A stretch of DNA of 64,000 nucleotides from Rhodospirillaceae bacterium SYSU D60007 (GTDB taxonomy: Bacteria; Pseudomonadota; Alphaproteobacteria; Reyranellales; Reyranellaceae). Below are positions 53,596 through 61,238 of this stretch, piece after piece (the first letter of the stretch is position 1; each line of letters starts with the position of its first letter). The stretch is from assembly GCA_003574685.1 (NCBI GenBank), contig QOCQ01000002.1, positions 248,001-312,000 on the forward strand. Reading direction: 5' to 3'. Below the pieces are notes generated by a model that did not search any database, was not told where the DNA came from, and saw nothing but the letters and a program-made list of their open reading frames with translations. The position numbers were made by a program, and so were the translations under genes.

Positions 53596-54210
53596 CGGTC
53601 TGTCCCTCCGGGGCCGTCGGCGCAATACCACGCGGCGCGCACGTCCGAACATGGCTATTGGAGCGACTAAGGCAATCAGGTTCGCATACGGCCACAAAGT
53701 CCCCGAAACCCTCCGCACTCTTGGCCTCACCAGGAAGGCGCGTCGTTTGATTGCCACCGATGAAAGGCTGCAGGATTTGTGTGTCATGGAAGGCCACTTC
53801 ATGACACGCAAACGGCTTTATGCGCCACCCGTGACACGCAATCGGCTGGACACCCCTGCCCGAAGCGAAGCTTCGTAATGTTGTCGACCAACATCGAGTG
53901 AGGCGCCTCAGGCTCGCAGTCATGATCTGTACTTGCGCAGTCCGCATGATCCAGCACCGCCTTGAGAAGCGTATTGCATTGAACCAAGAATGTTTTTCTG
54001 CTTGTCGAAGGCCAACAGATTGCGCACGCTAAGAGCCGATGAGAAGGAGGTCGGCCGCCGCTACGTCGAGCCAGTTGCCGGTAGGCAACCGCCTTCAGCG
54101 CGCGAGGATTTTGGCATGGGGGCGCATTACCGATGAGACCATCTGCCGAATGATCAAAGACGTGAAATGGGTCGGCACGCAACAGGCCGCCCTCATTGCG
54201 TGACCGTCGG
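53596..54210. other. Gene-poor border before the protease/nucleotide island
   Basis: About 600 bases with no credible gene. Open frames occur on both strands but lack start sites, known motifs and consistent codon bias. Two copies of GACACGCAAACGGCT (53803-53817; second copy 53833-53847 with T for A at position 10) lie 30 bases apart. Composition is less GC-rich than the kdsB side. It could be decayed mobile DNA or an attachment region. Confidence 0.45.
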
Positions 54211-55393
54211 ATGGCGAGAGCGTCCGGCGAATTCTCTCCGCTCACGGTCGCCGACTATGCCGCTTGCGCGGCGGAAACTGACCAGCGCCGCGATGGAGGG
54301 TCGCTGACTTTCCCGCTGCTTGGCCTATTCGGTGAGACGGGCAGTCTACTCAGCGAGGTCAAGAAAAAGCAGCGCGATCGTGCATCCTATCTCGGCTATG
54401 CCAGCGCGGTCGTCGAAGAGCTTGGTGATGTCCTGTGGTATTTGTCCACTGTCGCCGCACGCGGCGGGATTGCGCTGACCGACATCTTCGCCGAGGCGAC
54501 GCCGGGACCGCACGCCCAGGCTCGCAGCAAGGGCGAGACGCTGTCCTTCGCTGCGGTGCAGCCCGCGATCATGACCCACGCCACAGAGCCCACGGGCGCC
54601 TTTGAGCGCACGCTCCTCAAACTCGCAGGAGATGTCGGTCTTCGTTATAGACCAGGAAGCAGGACGACTTATCGACAGCCCATCGGCCCTGCTCGCCCGC
54701 TTGAGCGCAATCACCCGCACTCTCATCCAAGCTGCCAACGAAGCCGGCGTCACGCTCGAGGCAGCCGCCGTCAAGAACCTCGCCAAGACAACCGACCGCT
54801 GGCCCCGCGAGCGTATCTATCCTGCGCCGCTCGACGCCGACGCCGAGCCTGAAGAGCAGTTGCCGCGCGATCTGACGATTGAAATCTTCGAACGGGAGGT
54901 ACGCGGGCAAACCTATGTCTTCCAGCGCTGCAACGGCATCAATATCGGTGACCGTCTCACCGATAATGCGATGACCGCCGACGATTATCGCATTCATGAC
55001 GTGTTCCATTACGCCCATGTCGCCGTGCTGAGTTGGTCGCCGGTGATCCGCGCGCTGTTTCGCCTCAGGCGCAAATCAGATCCGAAAATCGACGATGCCC
55101 AGGATGGTGCCCGCGCGGCACTGATCGAGGAAGGCATCACGACCTGGATTTTTGGTCAGGCTGTGGAACTCGATCTCTTCGCCAACATGAAGCGCGGTGA
55201 TCTGCCGTTCGATCTCCTCAAGCACGTCCGCCAGTTCGTCGCAGGTTATGAAGCGGAACGTTGTCCGCTTTGGCTCTGGGAAGAAGCCATCCTGCAGGGC
55301 TATACAGCCTTCCGCTTCCTGCGTGAGCGCCGACGAGGCCGTGTCCGCATCGACATGGACAACCGTCAGCTTTCCATCGAGGCTCTGCCGTGA
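54211..55393 (+). pseudogene. MazG-like nucleoside triphosphate pyrophosphohydrolase with C-terminal domain, frameshifted
   Basis: The N-terminal frame (from ATG 54211, MARASGEFSPLTVADYAACA) has the MazG metal motif in GLFGETGSLLSEVKKK and VEELGDVLWYL. It runs to LLKLAGDVG at about 54639. The sense then continues in the next frame with VFVIDQEAGRLIDSPS and through EREVRGQTYVFQRCNGINIG, DYRIHDVFHYAHVAVL and ALIEEGITTWIFGQA to 55393. One extra base near 54637-54643 explains it. The C-terminal domain, with its HD...H and EE residues, is the sort that accompanies some MazG-like proteins in defence settings. The 3' end overlaps the glycosylase start. Mutation or sequence error cannot be told apart. 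Confidence 0.8.
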
Positions 55394-56091
55394 AAACACC
55401 TCGATCATTCGCGACCGCGCTTGCTAACACTTCCCTGCCCTCGGTGTTTAATCCTTATCGCGATTGCTGTCCGATCCACGATCGCGCCGACTCGCCTCGT
55501 GTACGCAAGCAAAACCTCACACGGTGCCTCGAAGCTGTGCTCGATGCGCGCGTCGACACGATTTGGATTGCGCGCGATCTCGGTTACCGCGGCGGCCGCA
55601 GGACAGGCATCCCTCTGACCGACGAAGTGCATCTCCCGTCAGCCAGCATGCTGCTTGGCGGCATCACACTCGATCGGGCAACGCGCGGCCCGATCGTTGC
55701 CGAACGCACCGCGGCGATCGTATGGAACGTGCTGGCGCGCATCGGTGCGCCGGTGTTCTTGTGGAATGTATTTCCATTACATCCCTATGAAGCTGGCAAT
55801 CCGATGTCGAACCGCTGCCATAGTCGAGCCGAGCGCGATGCGACTTGGCCGCTGCTGATGGCGCTGATCGCCATGATCGCCCCGCGCCGCATCGTTGCTA
55901 TTGGCCGCGATGCGAGTCTTGCGCTTGCAGAAATTGATGTTCCGGTGACGACGGTCCGGCATCCGAGCTATGGCGGGCAAGCGGAGTTCGTCGCTGGCCT
56001 GCACGCGCTCTATGGTCTCGATGGACCTTCCCAGAAACGTGAGACGCTCGAATTGCCGTTCGCTCAGGCAGCAAGCGGCGCCGTCGCCTGA
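55390..56091 (+). CDS. Uracil-DNA glycosylase-like protein
   Basis: A 233-residue protein starting with GTG inside the last codons of the MazG-like gene (GTGA overlap). It resembles a UDG-superfamily clade: N-terminal NPYRDCCP, motif region IARDLGYRGGRRTGIPLTDE (60-79), WNVFPLHPYEAGNPMSNR (125-142) and the C-terminal HPSYGG (191-196). The first motif has ARDLGYRG where classical members have GEAPG-like residues, so uracil excision needs checking. It converges on, and overlaps by 28 bases, the thymidylate-synthase-like gene. Confidence 0.8.
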   Translation: MKTPRSFATALANTSLPSVFNPYRDCCPIHDRADSPRVRKQNLTRCLEAVLDARVDTIWIARDLGYRGGRRTGIPLTDEVHLPSASMLLGGITLDRATRGPIVAERTAAIVWNVLARIGAPVFLWNVFPLHPYEAGNPMSNRCHSRAERDATWPLLMALIAMIAPRRIVAIGRDASLALAEIDVPVTTVRHPSYGGQAEFVAGLHALYGLDGPSQKRETLELPFAQAASGAVA

Positions 56092-56834
56092 TCGAACTGT
56101 GCGAGCATCGCCGCAATTTCGCCGCGGCGAGCACGATTTGGTAGATCGATCTCGGCGTGCGTTGAGAGCACCGTGAGCGCGCCAACCTGCAAGCCGGCTT
56201 CGTGGGCTACGAAGGCCATTAGCCGCCCAAGCCCGATCAGGTTGCCGAGCAGCTTCTCAACGTAGAAGTGGTTCCGGTAGAGCGCCGTAAGCGTCAGGGT
56301 ACGCACGGCACCGGGTGTAATCTTGAAGCTCATGAAACTGAGGCACTGCCCGCCATATGGTGAATTGTCGACGTCGCGGACTGGATCGAACAGCGAGAGT
56401 TCGAATTTATTGAGCGCCCGCACCTGATCGCTGCGCATACGCTCCACGATATCCCAGAGCTGGTTTGGAGGTTCACCCACGGGCACGGGGAAGTCGATCA
56501 TGCGTTCGAAATAGTAGCCCGACCAGCGCTCGCCCCGCCGAACCTTCGGCAGCACCTTCGTGGTGAACACATCAAAGAACTCTGGCGCACCATGGCGATA
56601 ATAGAGCGCTGCGGGAAAAATCGTATTGGCGACCGTCTCGATCGACTTGTCGCGCGCCACCAAGAAATCATCCACGACTGCGACGCCAGGATGCGCGCGC
56701 GTTGCATTGATCGTCGGATCTGCCACGTCGATTACCACGTTATAGGCTTCGTGACCGGGTGCGCCGTCGACCAGGCGGACCGCCTCGCGCCACGCGGTCG
56801 CGCAGTCAGGCTGCGACGGAACAGGCAGATACAT
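56064..56834 (-). CDS. Divergent thymidylate-synthase-like protein
   Basis: A 256-residue protein with the C-terminal TS core: GGQCLSFMSFKI (catalytic-type Cys at 164), ALYRNHFYVEKLLGNLIGL (Arg 187, Asn 198) and LSTHAEID (His 226). In ThyA these correspond to PCH, RSCD...LPFN and THLY; here Cys, Arg, Asn and His stay but the Asp of RSCD and the Tyr of HLY are changed. It may methylate or hydroxymethylate a dUMP/dCMP-like substrate, or bind one. The ATG at 56834 has GGAG at good distance; 56840 is possible. It overlaps the peptidase gene by about 29 bases. Confidence 0.75.
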   Translation of the reverse strand: MYLPVPSQPDCATAWREAVRLVDGAPGHEAYNVVIDVADPTINATRAHPGVAVVDDFLVARDKSIETVANTIFPAALYYRHGAPEFFDVFTTKVLPKVRRGERWSGYYFERMIDFPVPVGEPPNQLWDIVERMRSDQVRALNKFELSLFDPVRDVDNSPYGGQCLSFMSFKITPGAVRTLTLTALYRNHFYVEKLLGNLIGLGRLMAFVAHEAGLQVGALTVLSTHAEIDLPNRARRGEIAAMLAQFDQATAPLAA

Positions 56835-57492
56835 CGACATTCTCCGTCAATATCGCGGCGGCGAAGAGACGAGGCGCGAGGAAGGTTTCCGTAAGCCAGC
56901 CATAGCCAGCGGCGCCCCATCTGGGACCCCAGCTGTTGCGCACAAGGATTGCGAGCTCACCATCGACTGTCCCGTACGCGACTGCAACGACAGCATGGCG
57001 GCGCGCGGGATCAGGCCCCTCACCCGCAGCCGGATGAATCACGGCTTCGGCCGATGGTGCATAGAAGGCGCGGGACAGCATCAGGAGGAGGACCGAAGGA
57101 CGATCGCCCTCGAGTTCCTGGATGATCTTGTCGAGCGATGGCTTGCGCGTTTCGCCGGCGCGCCTGAACAGCGGTCCGACATCGTCGGGCGGCATCCAGG
57201 ATGTAGCATCGCTCGGCGTCGCGGTTAGATACGGCCACCCTGCTTCCTCGGGTTGCCCGTCCTCTTGCAGTGCTTCGAGGATCGCAGAAAGCAATGCACC
57301 CTTGCTGGGCGGCCGGCCCGCACGCCGCTGCGCGTGATAGAATGCGAATTCACACGACAACGGCGCCCATCCCGGCCGGAGCGCTGCATGCACATCGCTT
57401 CCAGCAAAGGCGAGGCAAGTCGGCCGCGGCCCCTGGTTGCGCGCCTCGCCGAACAGCGGCCGCAAATCCTTCAACACGACAATCTCGGTCAT
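56806..57492 (-). CDS. Papain-like (C1 family) cysteine peptidase, cytosolic
   Basis: A 228-residue peptidase with all four papain-fold active-site residues: Gln 20 and Cys 26 in RNQGPRPTCLAFA, His 166 in RRHAVVAVAYG and Asn 186 in RNSWGPRWG. There is no signal peptide and no propeptide, so it would be active in the cytosol unless inhibited. Its ATG overlaps the stop of the ImmA-chagasin fusion gene by four bases, so inhibitor and peptidase are made together. Substrate unknown. Confidence 0.87.
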   Translation of the reverse strand: MTEIVVLKDLRPLFGEARNQGPRPTCLAFAGSDVHAALRPGWAPLSCEFAFYHAQRRAGRPPSKGALLSAILEALQEDGQPEEAGWPYLTATPSDATSWMPPDDVGPLFRRAGETRKPSLDKIIQELEGDRPSVLLLMLSRAFYAPSAEAVIHPAAGEGPDPARRHAVVAVAYGTVDGELAILVRNSWGPRWGAAGYGWLTETFLAPRLFAAAILTENVDVSACSVAA

Positions 57493-58502
57493 GCGGCTTC
57501 AAGCAGCCTTCGCCGCTCGGCGCGCGACAGTCCTTCCTCTTCAGGCCCGGTCAGGTCGAAGTCGAGTTTGAGCCGCGACAGCGGAGGCTCTGGATCCCAG
57601 GGCCGCCGTTCCTCAATCTCCAGGGAGCCGCGGTGTGTCTCCTCGGGCGCTGCAGTTACGCGCCGGACGACCGGCCCTCCCACACCTTCGCCGTCGATCG
57701 CTTCGAGTTCGTCACGGACGATTGCAAATCCGCTCGCCTTGAGCTGATCGATGTCCCACAGATAGCCACCGCCACTATGCTCCTCAAGCCGCAACACGAA
57801 CAGATCATTGCGGCTGCCATCGATGCGTGTTCCAGCGTCGCGTTCGGTCAGGAGCCAGACATCACCGCGATAGTCCTGCGGCCTATAAGCCTCGAGCAGG
57901 TTGACCTTCAGCTCGCGCGGCTGTGTTTGAAGCAATTCGCGGGCGAGCGCGGCCTGGATCAAACGATGGCGGACGAGGCTCCAGCACGTCGCCTCATAGC
58001 TTGCGCCGATCCGAAGCGCGAGTTGGTAGACCCGGCTCGGATGCCGGAAGTCCTGCACGTTCCAGCATTGGCGGGCGGCATGCCACTGAATCAACCAGCG
58101 CGGCATCATGAAGCCGACTGCAAATGCGTCGGCTTCAACTTCCTGAAAATCCTCCGCAGGTCCGCCCGTCAGCGGCATGCGGCTAAGAATGCTTTCATCG
58201 TCCAGGCTCGGCTGATGCTTCATCTCGAAATGGCCGAGCTCGTGCGCGGCAGTCCACCGTTGGATGCTCATGGGCCGGCGCGTCGTTATCAGGACACCTG
58301 GGGCTGGGTCGCTGAGATAGGCACCAAGCAACCCTTGGAGTGGGCGAAGCAGAAGAGGCAGGTCGATAGCCTGGATGGCTCCGAATACATCGACATTGCC
58401 ACCCCTGGCTTCGACGAGCTGACGCAAGCCGAGGCGCTGATGGAGCCGAGCGGCCGCCATCGTCCCTGCTCGCACCGCGCCCGCGTAGTCCGCCGCTACC
58501 AT
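57489..58502 (-). CDS. ImmA/IrrE metallopeptidase fused to a chagasin-like cysteine-protease inhibitor domain
   Basis: A 337-residue two-domain protein. Residues 1-190 are an ImmA/IrrE-type zinc peptidase with HELGH (87-91) and the downstream acidic segment EVEADAFAVGFMMP (121-134). Residues about 212-318 follow the chagasin (inhibitor family I42) pattern: a Gly-rich turn before Trp, HSGGGYLW (242-249, NPTTGxxW in chagasin), GVGG (273-276, GxGG) and RPW (300-302). Chagasin inhibits papain-type peptidases, and one is encoded directly downstream with a four-base overlap. XRE lies 5 bases upstream. ImmA enzymes usually cleave a partner repressor. Confidence 0.85.
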   Translation of the reverse strand: MVAADYAGAVRAGTMAAARLHQRLGLRQLVEARGGNVDVFGAIQAIDLPLLLRPLQGLLGAYLSDPAPGVLITTRRPMSIQRWTAAHELGHFEMKHQPSLDDESILSRMPLTGGPAEDFQEVEADAFAVGFMMPRWLIQWHAARQCWNVQDFRHPSRVYQLALRIGASYEATCWSLVRHRLIQAALARELLQTQPRELKVNLLEAYRPQDYRGDVWLLTERDAGTRIDGSRNDLFVLRLEEHSGGGYLWDIDQLKASGFAIVRDELEAIDGEGVGGPVVRRVTAAPEETHRGSLEIEERRPWDPEPPLSRLKLDFDLTGPEEEGLSRAERRRLLEAA

Positions 58503-58507
58503 GAGGA

Positions 58508-58882
58508 CTAGCTCTGCCCGGCACGCGCCCGCGTGCGCAGGTATTCCGCGAAGCGGCTGAGCTCATCGCGATCCTGTTCCGACAGGTCCGCTGCACGACG
58601 GGCAAGATGCGCGACATCAACAGGCAGATTCGCGGACGCTTCGTCTTCACCGGTGAAGAATGCGACCGACTGCCGATAGAGTTTCGCAAGACGCGTCAGC
58701 TCGATGGCTTCGACGCGCCGCTGACCGTTTTCGATATCGGTAAGCGCAGTTCGCGGGATCTTGAGGTAGGTCGCGACCTCCTCTTGCTTGAGGCCCAGAT
58801 ACTTGCGCGCCTCGCGCAACCGGTCACCCAGCCGCCGGCGTTCCTCGTCATCGCCGTCTTGCCGAAATGCCACCTCGGTCAT
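58508..58882 (-). CDS. XRE-family transcriptional regulator
   Basis: A 124-residue protein with an N-terminal helix-turn-helix (about residues 15-75): RLREARKYLGLKQEEVATYL, IPRTALTDIENGQRRV and VEAIELTRLAKLY. The C-terminal part is charged and helical and may form the dimer or be the ImmA cleavage site. It overlaps the ACP-like gene by four bases and precedes the metallopeptidase by 5, so it is a typical ImmR-ImmA-like pair. Two GTCT/AGAC palindromes in the operon promoter are likely operators. Confidence 0.88.
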   Translation of the reverse strand: MTEVAFRQDGDDEERRRLGDRLREARKYLGLKQEEVATYLKIPRTALTDIENGQRRVEAIELTRLAKLYRQSVAFFTGEDEASANLPVDVAHLARRAADLSEQDRDELSRFAEYLRTRARAGQS

Positions 58883-59229
58883 GGCTTGCCTCCTTTACGC
58901 TTCTTCCACAGCGCTTCGATCCGGGGCAGCAGTTGGTCGAGCGCGTTGTCCACCGATCGGTAGCCGCCGGTGCGTACGACGCTTTCTGGTAGCTCGAAGC
59001 CAACAATCGGTTCAGCAACACACAGGATCGAAACGACAACCAACGAATCCACCTGAAATGGTGCCTTCGCTATATCGACGTCTGACGTCGGCAACATGAT
59101 CCCTTTGATTGAGGCTTCGTCCCTCACTGCTTGGATGAGTTCGGCCCGCAAGCTCGTCTCGACTGCTGATGCAGGAAACGGTGCCAAAACCGAGCTAGAG
59201 GACGGAGGAGACAAGGTGCCGACGGTCAT
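58879..59229 (-). CDS. Acyl-carrier-protein-like small protein
   Basis: A 116-residue protein starting MTVGTLSPPSSSSVLAPFPA. Residues 57-95 resemble an acyl/peptidyl carrier domain: PFQVDSLVVVSILCVAEPIV with serine 62 in the DSL motif that takes phosphopantetheine, and GFELPESVVRTGGYRSVDNA following. The rest of the expected four-helix bundle is weakly conserved. The frame extends to 59328; the ATG at 59229 follows the inferred promoter, whereas 59250 would be leaderless. First gene of the five-gene minus-strand operon. The tethered group and partner are unknown. Confidence 0.65.
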   Translation of the reverse strand: MTVGTLSPPSSSSVLAPFPASAVETSLRAELIQAVRDEASIKGIMLPTSDVDIAKAPFQVDSLVVVSILCVAEPIVGFELPESVVRTGGYRSVDNALDQLLPRIEALWKKRKGGKP

Positions 59230-59234
59230 GCATG

Positions 59235-59285
59235 TGTCTTTCGAAGACATAACGGTAATATAGAGTCTGATATTCAGACATTCAA
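59235..59285 (-). promoter_or_regulatory. Promoter with two GTCT/AGAC palindromes
   Basis: On the minus strand TTGAAT (59285-59280) and TATATT (59262-59257) are separated by 17 bases, a canonical -35/-10 pair. The spacer contains the perfect palindrome GTCTGA-TAT-TCAGAC (59265-59279). A second palindrome TGTCTT-TCG-AAGACA (59235-59249) lies just downstream over the start region. Both share GTCT/AGAC half-sites, so they are good candidate operators for the XRE repressor. Confidence 0.72.
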
Positions 59286-59524: not shown

Positions 59525-59950
59525 TTATTTGCGCGGGGCGCCGACGACGCGCAGGCCGTGAGCCTCGGCGGCAATGGCAAGCGCGCTGCCATGCGTGGCC
59601 ATCGTCAGGGCCTCGCCTGTCATCTCTTTCCAGAGGAGGGCCGTCGCCAGGTGAATGGCATCGAGTGTTCCGAGCTCGGTGGGCATCGGCTGGGCGGCAC
59701 GGTCCAGCACAGTGGAGTCGATCTCGACGATCTCCAGTGACGCGATCAACTCGAGGAGCTTGGCGCGCCGTCCTGCCATTTCTGTGTCGGGGAGTTTCGT
59801 CAGCAGGCGCAGCCGATCCAGTGTGCGCAGACACTCGGTGGTGGCGAGAGCACTCGACACCCCGCGATCGATTTCGGACCACTCTGCCAGCGAATCCGGC
59901 TGGCCCAGCGCTAGCCGGAGCAACACCGATGCATCGACGTAGGCGATCAA
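59525..59950 (-). CDS. vapC: VapC-family PIN-domain toxin
   Basis: A 141-residue PIN ribonuclease. Acidic residues are placed as in VapC: Asp 5 in MIAYVDASVLLRLA, Glu in ATTECLRTL (about 39), and Asp in TLDAIHLATAL (about 96). VapC toxins cleave tRNA or rRNA. It overlaps its antitoxin gene by four bases (59947-59950) and is translated after it. Stop at 59525. Confidence 0.9.
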   Translation of the reverse strand: MIAYVDASVLLRLALGQPDSLAEWSEIDRGVSSALATTECLRTLDRLRLLTKLPDTEMAGRRAKLLELIASLEIVEIDSTVLDRAAQPMPTELGTLDAIHLATALLWKEMTGEALTMATHGSALAIAAEAHGLRVVGAPRK

Positions 59951-60207
59951 CGATGCCCCTGGCGTTCTTCGAGCAGGAGAGTGACGACGTCGAGTTTCAG
60001 CCTCGCCGGCTTCGGCAACCGTACGCGATTGGGCGGCGGGGCACCCGGCGCAGGCTTGCGGACGGAGAGCGCCCGCCGCTCGCGAATCGGCACGAGCTGC
60101 GCGACGGGCGTCTCCCGATCCAGCACCGCAATCGTCTCGCCACGGCGGACCGCCCGCAGGTATTCGCTCAGCCTGGCCTTCAGATCGGCGATTCGCACTT
60201 GCCTCAT
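59947..60207 (-). CDS. Phd/YefM-type antitoxin
   Basis: An 86-residue antitoxin with the Phd core MRQVRIADLKARLSEYLRAV and RRGETIAVLDRETPVAQLVP; the basic, proline-rich C-terminus (about residues 55-86) would bind and neutralise the VapC partner. The start at 60207 is chosen because it matches the family; a frame to 60426 runs into repeats. A palindrome lies 11 bases upstream as probable operator. First gene of the toxin-antitoxin operon. Confidence 0.9.
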   Translation of the reverse strand: MRQVRIADLKARLSEYLRAVRRGETIAVLDRETPVAQLVPIRERRALSVRKPAPGAPPPNRVRLPKPARLKLDVVTLLLEERQGHR

Positions 60208-60217
60208 GACCACAGTA

Positions 60218-60233
60218 TGACCAGAAATGGTCA
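60218..60233. promoter_or_regulatory. TGACCA-N4-TGGTCA operator candidate
   Basis: TGACCA (60218-60223) and TGGTCA (60228-60233) form an inverted repeat separated by GAAA, with a further TGACCA half-site at 60207-60212. Toxin-antitoxin pairs are usually autoregulated at such sites. Confidence 0.55.
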
Positions 60234-60273
60234 CGCGGGCAAGCCAGGAGGCGGCCGCCGCAGGTTCAGTTGG

Positions 60274-60413
60274 ACCTTCCCCCGGAGGGGGAAGGTGGCG
60301 CGCCAGCGCCGGAAGGGGGATGCCGCAACAAGCACGGTGCCAAAGGCGAGACACCGAACGCGTTGCACCATCCCCCTTCCGCCCTTCGGGCACCTTCCCC
60401 CTCCGGGGGAAGG
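60274..60413. repeat. Composite inverted repeat with two CCTTCCCCC hairpins
   Basis: Two hairpins (60275-60295, arms CCTTCCCCC/GGGGGAAGG, and 60393-60413 with the same arms) face each other; the segments between (GGAAGGGGGATG and CATCCCCCTTCC) are complementary as well, so the whole 140-base unit can fold on itself. Related copies are at 1178, 29932 and 53038. Confidence 0.8.
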
Positions 60414-60422
60414 ATAGGCGGT

Positions 60423-61238
60423 TCACCCCAGCGTGTGGTCCAGGAAGAGCATGGTGCCGAAGCCGGCGAAGAGGGCGATGGTGGCGCTGATGGTGCCCTT
60501 CGCCTCGGACCGGTGCGTCTCGGGAATGATCTCGTGGCTGATCACGAACAGCATGGCCCCGGCCGCGAAGGCGAGCGCCCAGGGCAACAGCGTGCTGGAG
60601 AGCGACACCGCGCCGGCGCCCACGATGCCGCCCAGCACCTCGATCAGGCCGGTGGCGGCGGCGACCAGGAAGGCCATGGTCCGGCCGTGGCCCAGCGACA
60701 GCAGCCCGAGCGCGACGGCGAGGCCTTCGGGGATGTTCTGCAGGCCGATGCCCACCACGACGCCGAGCCCCGGAATCTCGTCGGGCAGCCGCACCGGATT
60801 GCCGGCGGCGACGCCGGTTGCCAGCCCCTCGGGGAAATTGTGGATGGCGATGGCGATCACGAACAGCCAGACCCGGCGGATGCGCTGAACCAGCGGTCCT
60901 TCGCGACCGCGGCCGAGATGCTCGTGTGGCGAGAGGCGATGCGTGCCGGCCATCACCAGCCCGCCCGTGGCCAGCGCCAGGATCGCGCCGGTCGCTGCCG
61001 GCACCCGCCCGCCGGTGGCTTCGCCCGCCAGCTCCAGCGCCGGCAGCAGCAGGGAGAAGAAGGTGGCCGCCAGCATCACGCCGGCGGCGAAGCTCAGGAG
61101 CGCGTTGCCCAGCCGCGCTGGCAGGACCCGCAACACGAAGACCGGCGCACCGCCCACCGAGGTGCCGACCAGGCCCGCCAGCACCGAGCCCAGCACGCCG
61201 AGCCAGAAGGGCGGCAGCGCGCTGAGCGTTTCCATCAT
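60423..61238 (-). CDS. ZIP family metal transporter
   Basis: A 271-residue inner-membrane protein of the ZIP (zinc/iron) family with eight hydrophobic segments. The histidine-bearing motif in helix 4, VIAIAIHNFPEGLATGVA (about 147-164), and the matching GIGLQNIPEGLAVALGL (about 188-204) in helix 5 are the metal-binding sites. The histidine-rich loop expected between helices 3 and 4 is short (HEHLGRGREG). It starts MMETLSALPP 11 bases after the stop of the RND gene; weak ribosome binding site. Metal specificity is inferred. Confidence 0.87.
   Translation of the reverse strand: MMETLSALPPFWLGVLGSVLAGLVGTSVGGAPVFVLRVLPARLGNALLSFAAGVMLAATFFSLLLPALELAGEATGGRVPAATGAILALATGGLVMAGTHRLSPHEHLGRGREGPLVQRIRRVWLFVIAIAIHNFPEGLATGVAAGNPVRLPDEIPGLGVVVGIGLQNIPEGLAVALGLLSLGHGRTMAFLVAAATGLIEVLGGIVGAGAVSLSSTLLPWALAFAAGAMLFVISHEIIPETHRSEAKGTISATIALFAGFGTMLFLDHTLG

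Follow-up and report, generated by a model that had tools for sequence, protein, structure and literature searches.

A chagasin-like domain on an ImmA/IrrE metallopeptidase and its probable target, an adjacent propeptide-free papain-like peptidase

In the CapH+CapP systems, CapP is activated by single-stranded DNA (ssDNA), cleaves CapH and controls immune operons, as stated in the accessible parts of two reports (PMC10904395, PMC13373217). The available part of the work on Cip1 of Pseudomonas syringae, a bacterial chagasin (I42 inhibitor) that targets plant proteases, gives NPTTG, GxGG and RPW as the family motifs and an inhibition constant (Ki) of about 4 nM for papain; Pseudomonas chagasins carry putative signal peptides, protozoan ones do not (PMC5014320). 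Here we describe, in a 64,000-nucleotide (nt) stretch of Rhodospirillaceae bacterium SYSU D60007 (contig QOCQ01000002.1, positions 248,001 to 312,000; the whole stretch is called the window), a head-to-tail operon of five minus-strand genes in the order acyl carrier protein (ACP)-like, XRE, ImmA-I42, C1 and thymidylate-synthase-like (TSL), with which genes for a uracil-DNA glycosylase (UDG)-superfamily protein and for MazG/MazG_C are convergent. The ImmA-I42 gene (immA) encodes an ImmA/IrrE (M78) metallopeptidase that carries a chagasin domain at its C-terminus, and the C1 gene a papain-like peptidase. We propose, with a probability of roughly 0.6, that a CapH+CapP-like proteolytic switch governs the operon and that the cysteine peptidase it encodes is held in check. 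An earlier note on the window had described these two genes as we find them and missed the operon setting, two of the five genes having been seen. Its remark that it knew of no description of the combination agrees with our search of the open-licence literature, where, in the texts that were accessible, no description of an ImmA-I42 fusion, a C1+I42 operon or the cassette was found. Public annotation names the parts piecemeal, the same gene being called 'ImmA/IrrE...' or 'protease inhibitor I42 family protein'.

The operon resembles CapH+CapP in that XRE and M78 genes lie near its head together with conflict-type genes, a promoter palindrome and matches to capH and capP; like DdrO/PprI(IrrE), it pairs an XRE repressor with an M78 metallopeptidase. 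Unlike in both systems, the ImmA of the window bears an extra I42 domain and an ACP-like gene precedes the repressor. Compared with CapH+CapP, ssDNA activation and repressor cleavage are only putative here, and the XRE matches RmrA too. With the chagasins, or inhibitors of cysteine peptidases (chagasin, amoebiasins, Cip1), the I42 domain shares the family, the GxGG-type and RPW loops and the GYxW after loop L2, but it is fused to a metallopeptidase, has no evident signal peptide and lacks the Thr-Thr of L2. The C1 peptidase has the Gln/Cys/His/Asn and RNSWG signature of the C1A peptidases (papain, cathepsins), but no propeptide. Overlapping genes, the inhibitor coming first, and a frequent plasmid location recall type II toxin-antitoxin modules, including ImmA-Xre; unlike there, the putative inhibitor belongs to a sensor-type peptidase as one of its domains and is not the DNA-binding protein, and C1 is only a putative toxin. 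The earlier note had suggested a restrained, toxin-like peptidase whose inhibitor is built into a regulatory metallopeptidase. The fusion, gained or lost together with the only C1 detected in the genome, supports this proposal in part; a simple toxin-antitoxin reading was rejected, since the ACP-like, XRE, TSL, palindrome, UDG and MazG_C elements point elsewhere, and is kept as an analogy only.

By its sequence, the 337-residue protein is an ImmA/IrrE metallopeptidase with a C-terminal chagasin domain. Pfam places M78 (PF06114) at residues 67-173 (1.2e-7) and Inhibitor_I42 (PF09394) at residues 231-307 (3.5e-6; 27.6 bits, the cut-off being 27.2). Some relatives miss the curated I42 cut-off (L032, L033, L035); a haloarchaeal one scores 43.5 bits. 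Searched singly against the PDB, the window sequence matched amoebiasin-2 (3m86) over residues 215-309 at 5.3e-5, and a 16-row profile of the domain matched amoebiasin-2 at 1.5e-12 and chagasin (2nqd) at 1.8e-4, I42 inhibitors filling ranks 1-9 of the 10 matches with E <= 1 (1.5e-12 to 0.03). The chagasin-like domain predicted by the earlier note is thus recovered by two routes, and the motifs that it had listed after an HELGH zinc-peptidase domain are where it placed them: HELGH at 87-91 (with a distal Glu121), HSGGGYLW at 242-249, GVGG at 273-276 and RPW at 300-302. In close relatives the I42 domain is followed by a conserved tail, GLSRAERRRLLEA (window 57489-57555).

Chagasin loop motifs contact the peptidase cleft. 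In the window L4 (GxGG) and L6 (RPW) are present, and L2 retains G-Y-x-W without Thr-Thr. Among 38 loci with C1 (the locus set is defined below) G-[YF]-x-W and the Gly of L4 are found in 38/38 and RPW in 35/38, whereas GYxW and RPW are each absent from all 11 ImmA proteins encoded without C1. Inhibition by the I42 domain is therefore likely and of unsettled strength, because the motifs and the Ki are known for Cip1 but the Thr-Thr of L2 has been lost. This loss (Thr-Thr in 0/38 C1-positive loci) is what would be expected if the divergent L2 left the cleft open and the I42 domain served for docking, recruiting C1 to ImmA in a two-peptidase complex or cascade, or chaperoning it; strict I42-C1 pairing is equally expected then. 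We consider such docking unlikely, since the retained GYxW- and RPW-type motifs mark inhibitory chagasins (PMC5014320, in its available part) and a propeptide-free C1 needs external restraint.

The latter point rests on the C1 proteins themselves, 34 of 38 of which were aligned (L008, L019, L020 and L024 were left out). PF00112 is found in all 34, at 3.9e-8 in the 228-residue protein of the window, and Gln20, Cys26, His166 and Asn186 are invariant; the papain tetrad and the RNSWG motif are fully retained. With the starts as used, the catalytic Cys falls at residue 23-30 in 34/34, which leaves no room for a propeptide, and no signal peptide was recognised by eye. The propeptide-free papain-like neighbour with a four-base overlap, as the earlier note had it, is hence real in the window, and the 4-nt overlap of immA and C1 recurs in 25/34 loci.

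The comparison covers 49 loci with both TSL and ImmA, near-copies included; ImmA-I42 queries retrieved many of the C1-positive ones, and TSL or ImmA profiles were the main source of those without C1. A companion gene is called absent when the fetched sequence, in most cases 6-8 kb to either side, does not contain it. L018 is counted despite its truncated TSL. Excluded were L025 (immA cut off by the contig end), L039 (from Bacillus, without TSL), L075 (a TSL fragment only), L081 and L084-L100 (ImmA without TSL), L005/L208 (stand-alone I42), L044-L066 (23 weak thymidylate-synthase-type matches in long frames, none with ImmA, C1 or I42 closer than about 1.5 kb), as well as duplicates and short copies of counted loci (L001-L004, L006, L040-L043, L071, L072, L181-L184).

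Of the 49 loci, 38 have I42 and C1 and 11 have neither; no mixed case occurs. Pfam finds M78 in all 49 ImmA proteins, HELGH and the distal Glu being kept throughout, and I42 in 38 (E <= 0.05). Scanned singly, the 11 C1-less proteins gave no I42 match (10 at E <= 1; L073 at E <= 0.1), so the 38 I42 matches are those of the 38 C1-positive loci. Hidden Markov models (HMMs) built from this system agree (C1 and I42 each 38/38 and 0/11). The pair is retained together across Alphaproteobacteria, Burkholderia and Haloarcula. In the 5.3-Mb genome of the window one I42 and one C1 are detected at E <= 0.001, and they are the operon neighbours. When seven C1-positive genomes were searched whole, all eight I42 matches were fused to ImmA (G018 has two copies of the system) and the operon's C1 was the only one in six; G018 has one extra weak C1 (23.5 bits). 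Two C1-less genomes searched whole yielded neither I42 nor C1. I42 is uncommon in general (19/299 genomes of the phylum), in open frames of 124-215 residues except for that of the window and one of 645 residues. The strict pairing and the genome-wide uniqueness imply that the I42 domain very probably acts on the C1 peptidase of the operon, as far as sequence can tell.

In a TSL tree (quick method; 48 rows, L018 being left out) all C1-positive loci lie on one side of a single branch, with a Shimodaira-Hasegawa-like approximate likelihood ratio test (SH-aLRT) support of 95, which implies one shared gain or loss, not many. A single transition would also be compatible with hitch-hiking, in which, within one clade, a regulatory ImmA of the usual kind, its Ig-like C-terminal domain decayed, would have an unrelated peptidase gene as its neighbour, and the C1-less ImmA proteins do carry a C-terminal stretch of roughly 90-130 residues. 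Aligned with I42 by HHalign, this stretch gave nothing for the cyanobacterial/proteobacterial type and a probability of 10-34% for the actinobacterial type. We regard hitch-hiking as very unlikely, given that the loops are conserved across a clade with TSL end branches of 1.8-3.5 changes per column, that neither gene occurs alone in the 49 loci and that both are unique genome-wide.

The I42 domain might also be a shield aimed at C1 peptidases of phages or other invaders instead of that of the operon; C1-type peptidases are indeed common in viral contigs (at least 325 related stretches). The fact that I42 is never found without an adjacent C1 in the 49 loci, though the rest of the cassette is, makes this highly improbable. 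None of 80 viral C1 loci had a nearby I42, so that no general arms race is visible, a limited negative as the I42 HMM, built from this system, recovered 12/18 generic I42 loci. A viral scan with a stand-alone chagasin found no relative. An independent bacterial I42-C1 neighbourhood exists in the order of the window: L208 (6983-9154) carries a stand-alone I42 (PF09394, 1.6e-18) and, separated by one open reading frame (ORF), an unrelated same-strand C1 (4.3e-44) with an N-terminal extension.

XRE and M78 genes are present in 49/49 loci. With the PADLOC 2.0 models, the best match of ImmA is capP (3.1e-12), and the XRE matches RmrA (4.7e-12, the best) and capH (5.9e-12) about equally. Upstream of the ACP-like gene a palindrome, TGTC[GT]GA-NNN-TC[CA]GACA with up to two mismatches, occurs in 31/38 C1-positive loci, in most of these 388-399 nt ahead of the XRE start. 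L018 (contig start), L023, L024, L035, L036, L080 and L205 lack it or have a weak form, and among ten C1-less loci examined it is found in three, the Streptomyces ones. The scan covered 48/49 loci (in L069 nothing upstream of XRE is available); the consensus was drawn up with these upstream regions in view, single-base shuffles serving as the control. Five C1-less loci (L070, L073, L074, L083, L206) have a different palindrome, GTAAGA...TCTTAC. We infer that the first palindrome is a candidate operator, likely bound by XRE.

The remaining genes suggest that the cassette probably deals with uracil, 5-hydroxymethyluracil (5-hmU) or thymine nucleotides or bases. The window TSL has no Pfam match, and its NCBIfam match to thymidylate synthase (TS; 5.5e-8) is far under the cut-off. 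By its AlphaFold2 model, with a predicted local distance difference test score (pLDDT) of 89.6 and a predicted template modelling (TM) score of 0.90, it has the TS-superfamily fold: Foldseek retrieves TS (4.3e-10; TM about 0.55) and the CMP hydroxymethylase MilA (3.2e-8), at TM-scores of about 0.4-0.6, and the catalytic-type Cys is invariant in alignments. MazG_C is found in 42/49 loci; of the seven lacking it, L016 and L203 end at contig ends. UDG occurs in 32/38 C1-positive and 0/11 C1-less loci, and a 5-hydroxymethyldeoxyuridine (5-hmdU) DNA kinase (HMUDK_hel) in four other C1-positive and 9/11 C1-less loci (three kinases by Pfam). The two co-occur in none of the 49 fetched loci (UDG 32, kinase 13), as if one replaced the other. 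Two C1-positive loci have neither, L016 (a 4.8-kb contig) and L018 (in the 5 kb following its truncated TSL). A dCTP deaminase gene lies near six loci.

Systems centred on base modification and nucleotides were reportedly described by Iyer et al. (2013, Nucleic Acids Res.) and Burroughs et al. (2015, Nucleic Acids Res.), and may include the C1-less core. According to the accessible part of the DefensePredictor study, TS and 5-hydroxymethyluracil kinase are among the domains newly validated in phage defence, and systems with aGPT-PPlase, MazG, MazG-C, UDG and NMAD are predicted (PMC13092281). The cassette shares TS-like, 5-hmdU kinase, MazG_C and UDG components with these, a likeness by type only; in the main text of that article 'ImmA' and 'acyl carrier' do not occur and the sole 'peptidase' is M15 (PMC13092281).

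The window ACP-like protein alone has no Pfam match. A profile of its family retrieves PDB entries of ACPs (8.8e-6 at best), the phosphopantetheine-type DS is kept in 13/13 aligned proteins, and a Streptomyces homologue matches PP-binding at 9.1e-8. Phosphopantetheinyl-transferase genes near six loci (five by HMM; L036 by annotation and Pfam) support a real carrier protein. Papain-fold acyltransferases exist, BtrH being an example, and C1 might thus be an acyl or amide transferase that acts with the ACP in a nucleotide or base modification, the I42 domain regulating this chemistry. The ACP-like gene at the operon head, the nearby phosphopantetheinyl-transferase genes, the nucleotide or base enzymes TSL, MazG_C and UDG or kinase, and C1 distances that correlate best with those of the ACP (partial r 0.48) would suit such a role. 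We nevertheless hold it to be quite unlikely: the ACP is present in C1-less loci too, C1 keeps the full papain tetrad and RNSWG motif, and I42 inhibitors are, to our knowledge, known only against C1 peptidases.

A restrained peptidase under a proteolytic switch could work as follows. At rest, XRE on the promoter palindrome would hold operon expression low, and coupled translation, inhibitor before peptidase, would supply basal ImmA-I42 and C1. The I42 domain would occupy the active-site cleft of C1, which without a propeptide would otherwise be active in the cytosol; we find binding and inhibition likely from the sequences. Upon a trigger, by analogy ssDNA or damaged DNA when a phage or plasmid invades, ImmA would cleave XRE and the operon would be induced, a switch to which we give about even odds. 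The same activation, or the loss of ImmA-I42 itself, might then free C1 to cut proteins of the cell or the invader. That activation of ImmA releases C1 is doubtful, and this release and the targets of C1 are the weakest steps of the mechanism. In parallel, TS-like, MazG_C, UDG or 5-hmdU kinase and the ACP carrier would form a nucleotide or DNA-base arm. The more elaborate idea of a two-protease relay, in which a single activation both de-represses the operon and frees a proteolytic effector coupled to this nucleotide/base-modifying arm, is tentative and less likely than not, and for a defence or conflict role of the cassette the odds are slightly short of even.

Several observations weigh against a restrained peptidase under a CapH+CapP-like switch. 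Since RmrA is the best match of the XRE, the capH match is weakly specific, and the PADLOC 2.0 models give no match for C1, TSL, UDG, MazG or ACP. As to inhibition, that by Cip1 is weakened when its two Thr are removed or replaced, according to the available part of the report (PMC5014320), and these are the residues missing from L2. Chagasin inhibition is tight, and no feature that would reverse it is apparent in the sequence. An AlphaFold2 model of ImmA-I42 (20 sequences) has a mean pLDDT of 59.7 and was discarded as evidence for the I42 fold, since pLDDT is about 27-56 over this domain (blocks of ten). The I42-C1 pairing is one transition, and the tree has long branches, of whose meeting the program warns. 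Many loci were retrieved with ImmA-I42 as the query, a bias towards I42-positive loci; the searches would nonetheless have picked up any I42 lacking C1, and they found none. A mirror-tree comparison (31 loci) was rejected as a sign of specific I42-C1 coevolution, as this pair is not singled out (partial r: I42-C1 0.30, I42-M78 0.32, I42-TSL 0.37, C1-ACP 0.48). The C1-less form has the remaining cassette without C1 and I42, hence C1 is not its only activity and not an essential effector of the cassette; C1+I42 would be one clade-specific module in a nucleotide or DNA-base cassette with CapH+CapP-like regulation. Among 50,697 phage records nothing matched the ImmA protein, and a phage origin was set aside; IMG/VR gave four cassette loci (L067, L080, L082, L083). 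Finally, mazG of the window genome is frameshifted.

Papain-like peptidases in the cytosol pose a control problem, as such enzymes usually require a propeptide or a vesicle. Here the apparent restraint is a chagasin domain on a sensor-type metallopeptidase, found in numerous bacteria as well as on one archaeal plasmid. The adjacency of the only I42 and C1 detected in the genome offers a natural inhibitor-peptidase pair that can be put to the test, and the system would be an example of proteolytic control within a probable conflict cassette. The cassette around it contains an ACP and occurs in forms that swap UDG for the 5-hmdU DNA kinase. If true, the relay would represent a novel form of zymogen-like control inside bacterial and archaeal cells, with inhibitor and sensor in one chain.

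The earlier note had advised a search for the fusion in other genomes; ImmA-I42 is found in 38 loci, one on a betaproteobacterial and one on an archaeal plasmid among them. In the order of the window it occurs in 3/76 genomes (93-100% identity; one genome has two copies), a fourth being matched through a stand-alone I42 only. In a collection of species representatives 21 ImmA-I42 loci were found, titled as Alphaproteobacteria or unplaced Proteobacteria bins. On plasmids the ImmA-I42 query matched 20 records, some from other systems, of which 16 were read (H2, H3, H4 and H8 were left out). Twelve plasmids are C1-positive, all with the order ACP-like / XRE / ImmA-I42 / C1 / TSL, and their hosts are Sphingobium, Sinorhizobium, Bradyrhizobium (2), Rhizobium (3), Sulfitobacter, Acuticoccus, Sphingomonas, Burkholderia glumae and the archaeon Haloarcula marina. 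Seven of the 12 regions lie near caspase-family, Shedu, AbiEii, CHAT or pYEATS genes (a count without an enrichment control). The C1-less form, ACP-like / XRE / ImmA / TSL, is carried by three Streptomyces plasmids and by plasmids of Allocoleopsis and Nostoc, and genome G633 has both forms. TSL was found in 4/385 sampled genomes of the class (E <= 1e-20) and, in a separate sample of the phylum, in 26/398 genomes at E <= 1e-5, four of them at 1e-32 or better; the remaining phylum matches lie in long TS-type frames with no ImmA, C1 or I42 nearby.

Table 1 Coordinates of the operon, its neighbours and the I42 loops in the window
Feature	Position	Strand	Basis or remark
Operator-like palindrome	59264..59280	.	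TGTC[GT]GA-NNN-TC[CA]GACA, 1 mismatch in the window; upstream of ACP start
TATATT, -10-like hexamer	59257-59262	-	by eye; abuts palindrome in the window
ACP-like protein, 116 residues, DSL motif	58879..59229	-	longer GTG ORF extends to 59328
XRE-family helix-turn-helix (HTH) protein, CapH-like repressor (predicted)	58508..58882	-	HTH_3 7.3e-11
ImmA/IrrE (M78) metallopeptidase with chagasin (I42) domain, 337 residues	57489..58502	-	Pfam, PADLOC, profile
I42 domain, about residues 212-316	57555..57869	-	Pfam and PDB profile
Loop L2 HSGGGYLW, residues 242-249	57756..57779	-	G-[YF]-x-W in 38/38 C1-positive loci
Loop L4 EGVGGP, residues 272-277	57672..57689	-	Gly275 in 38/38 C1-positive loci
Loop L6 RRPWDP, residues 299-304	57591..57608	-	RPW in 35/38 C1-positive loci
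Propeptide-free C1 (papain-like) peptidase, 228 residues	56806..57492	-	PF00112; 4-nt overlap with immA
TSL, thymidylate-synthase superfamily, invariant Cys166	56064..56840	-	fold and alignment
UDG-superfamily gene	55390..56091	+	PF03167 2.3e-5; convergent
MazG plus MazG_C pyrophosphohydrolase gene	54196..55393	+	two ORFs; frameshifted against close relative

The split of the window mazG (54196-55393) is due to a 2-nt difference from a relative (87% DNA identity) with one long ORF, and reflects either a pseudogene or an assembly error. TSL is annotated in two pieces on two plasmids (L033, L078), where it may have decayed in an otherwise retained operon. A calcineurin-like metallophosphoesterase gene lies near the cassette in 9/38 C1-positive loci (L012, L013, L015, L017, L019, L020, L029, L076, L078), its product having 724 residues in L029. 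Directly upstream of the window operon, at 59525-60426, lies a PIN and Phd/YefM (VapBC-like) toxin-antitoxin pair.

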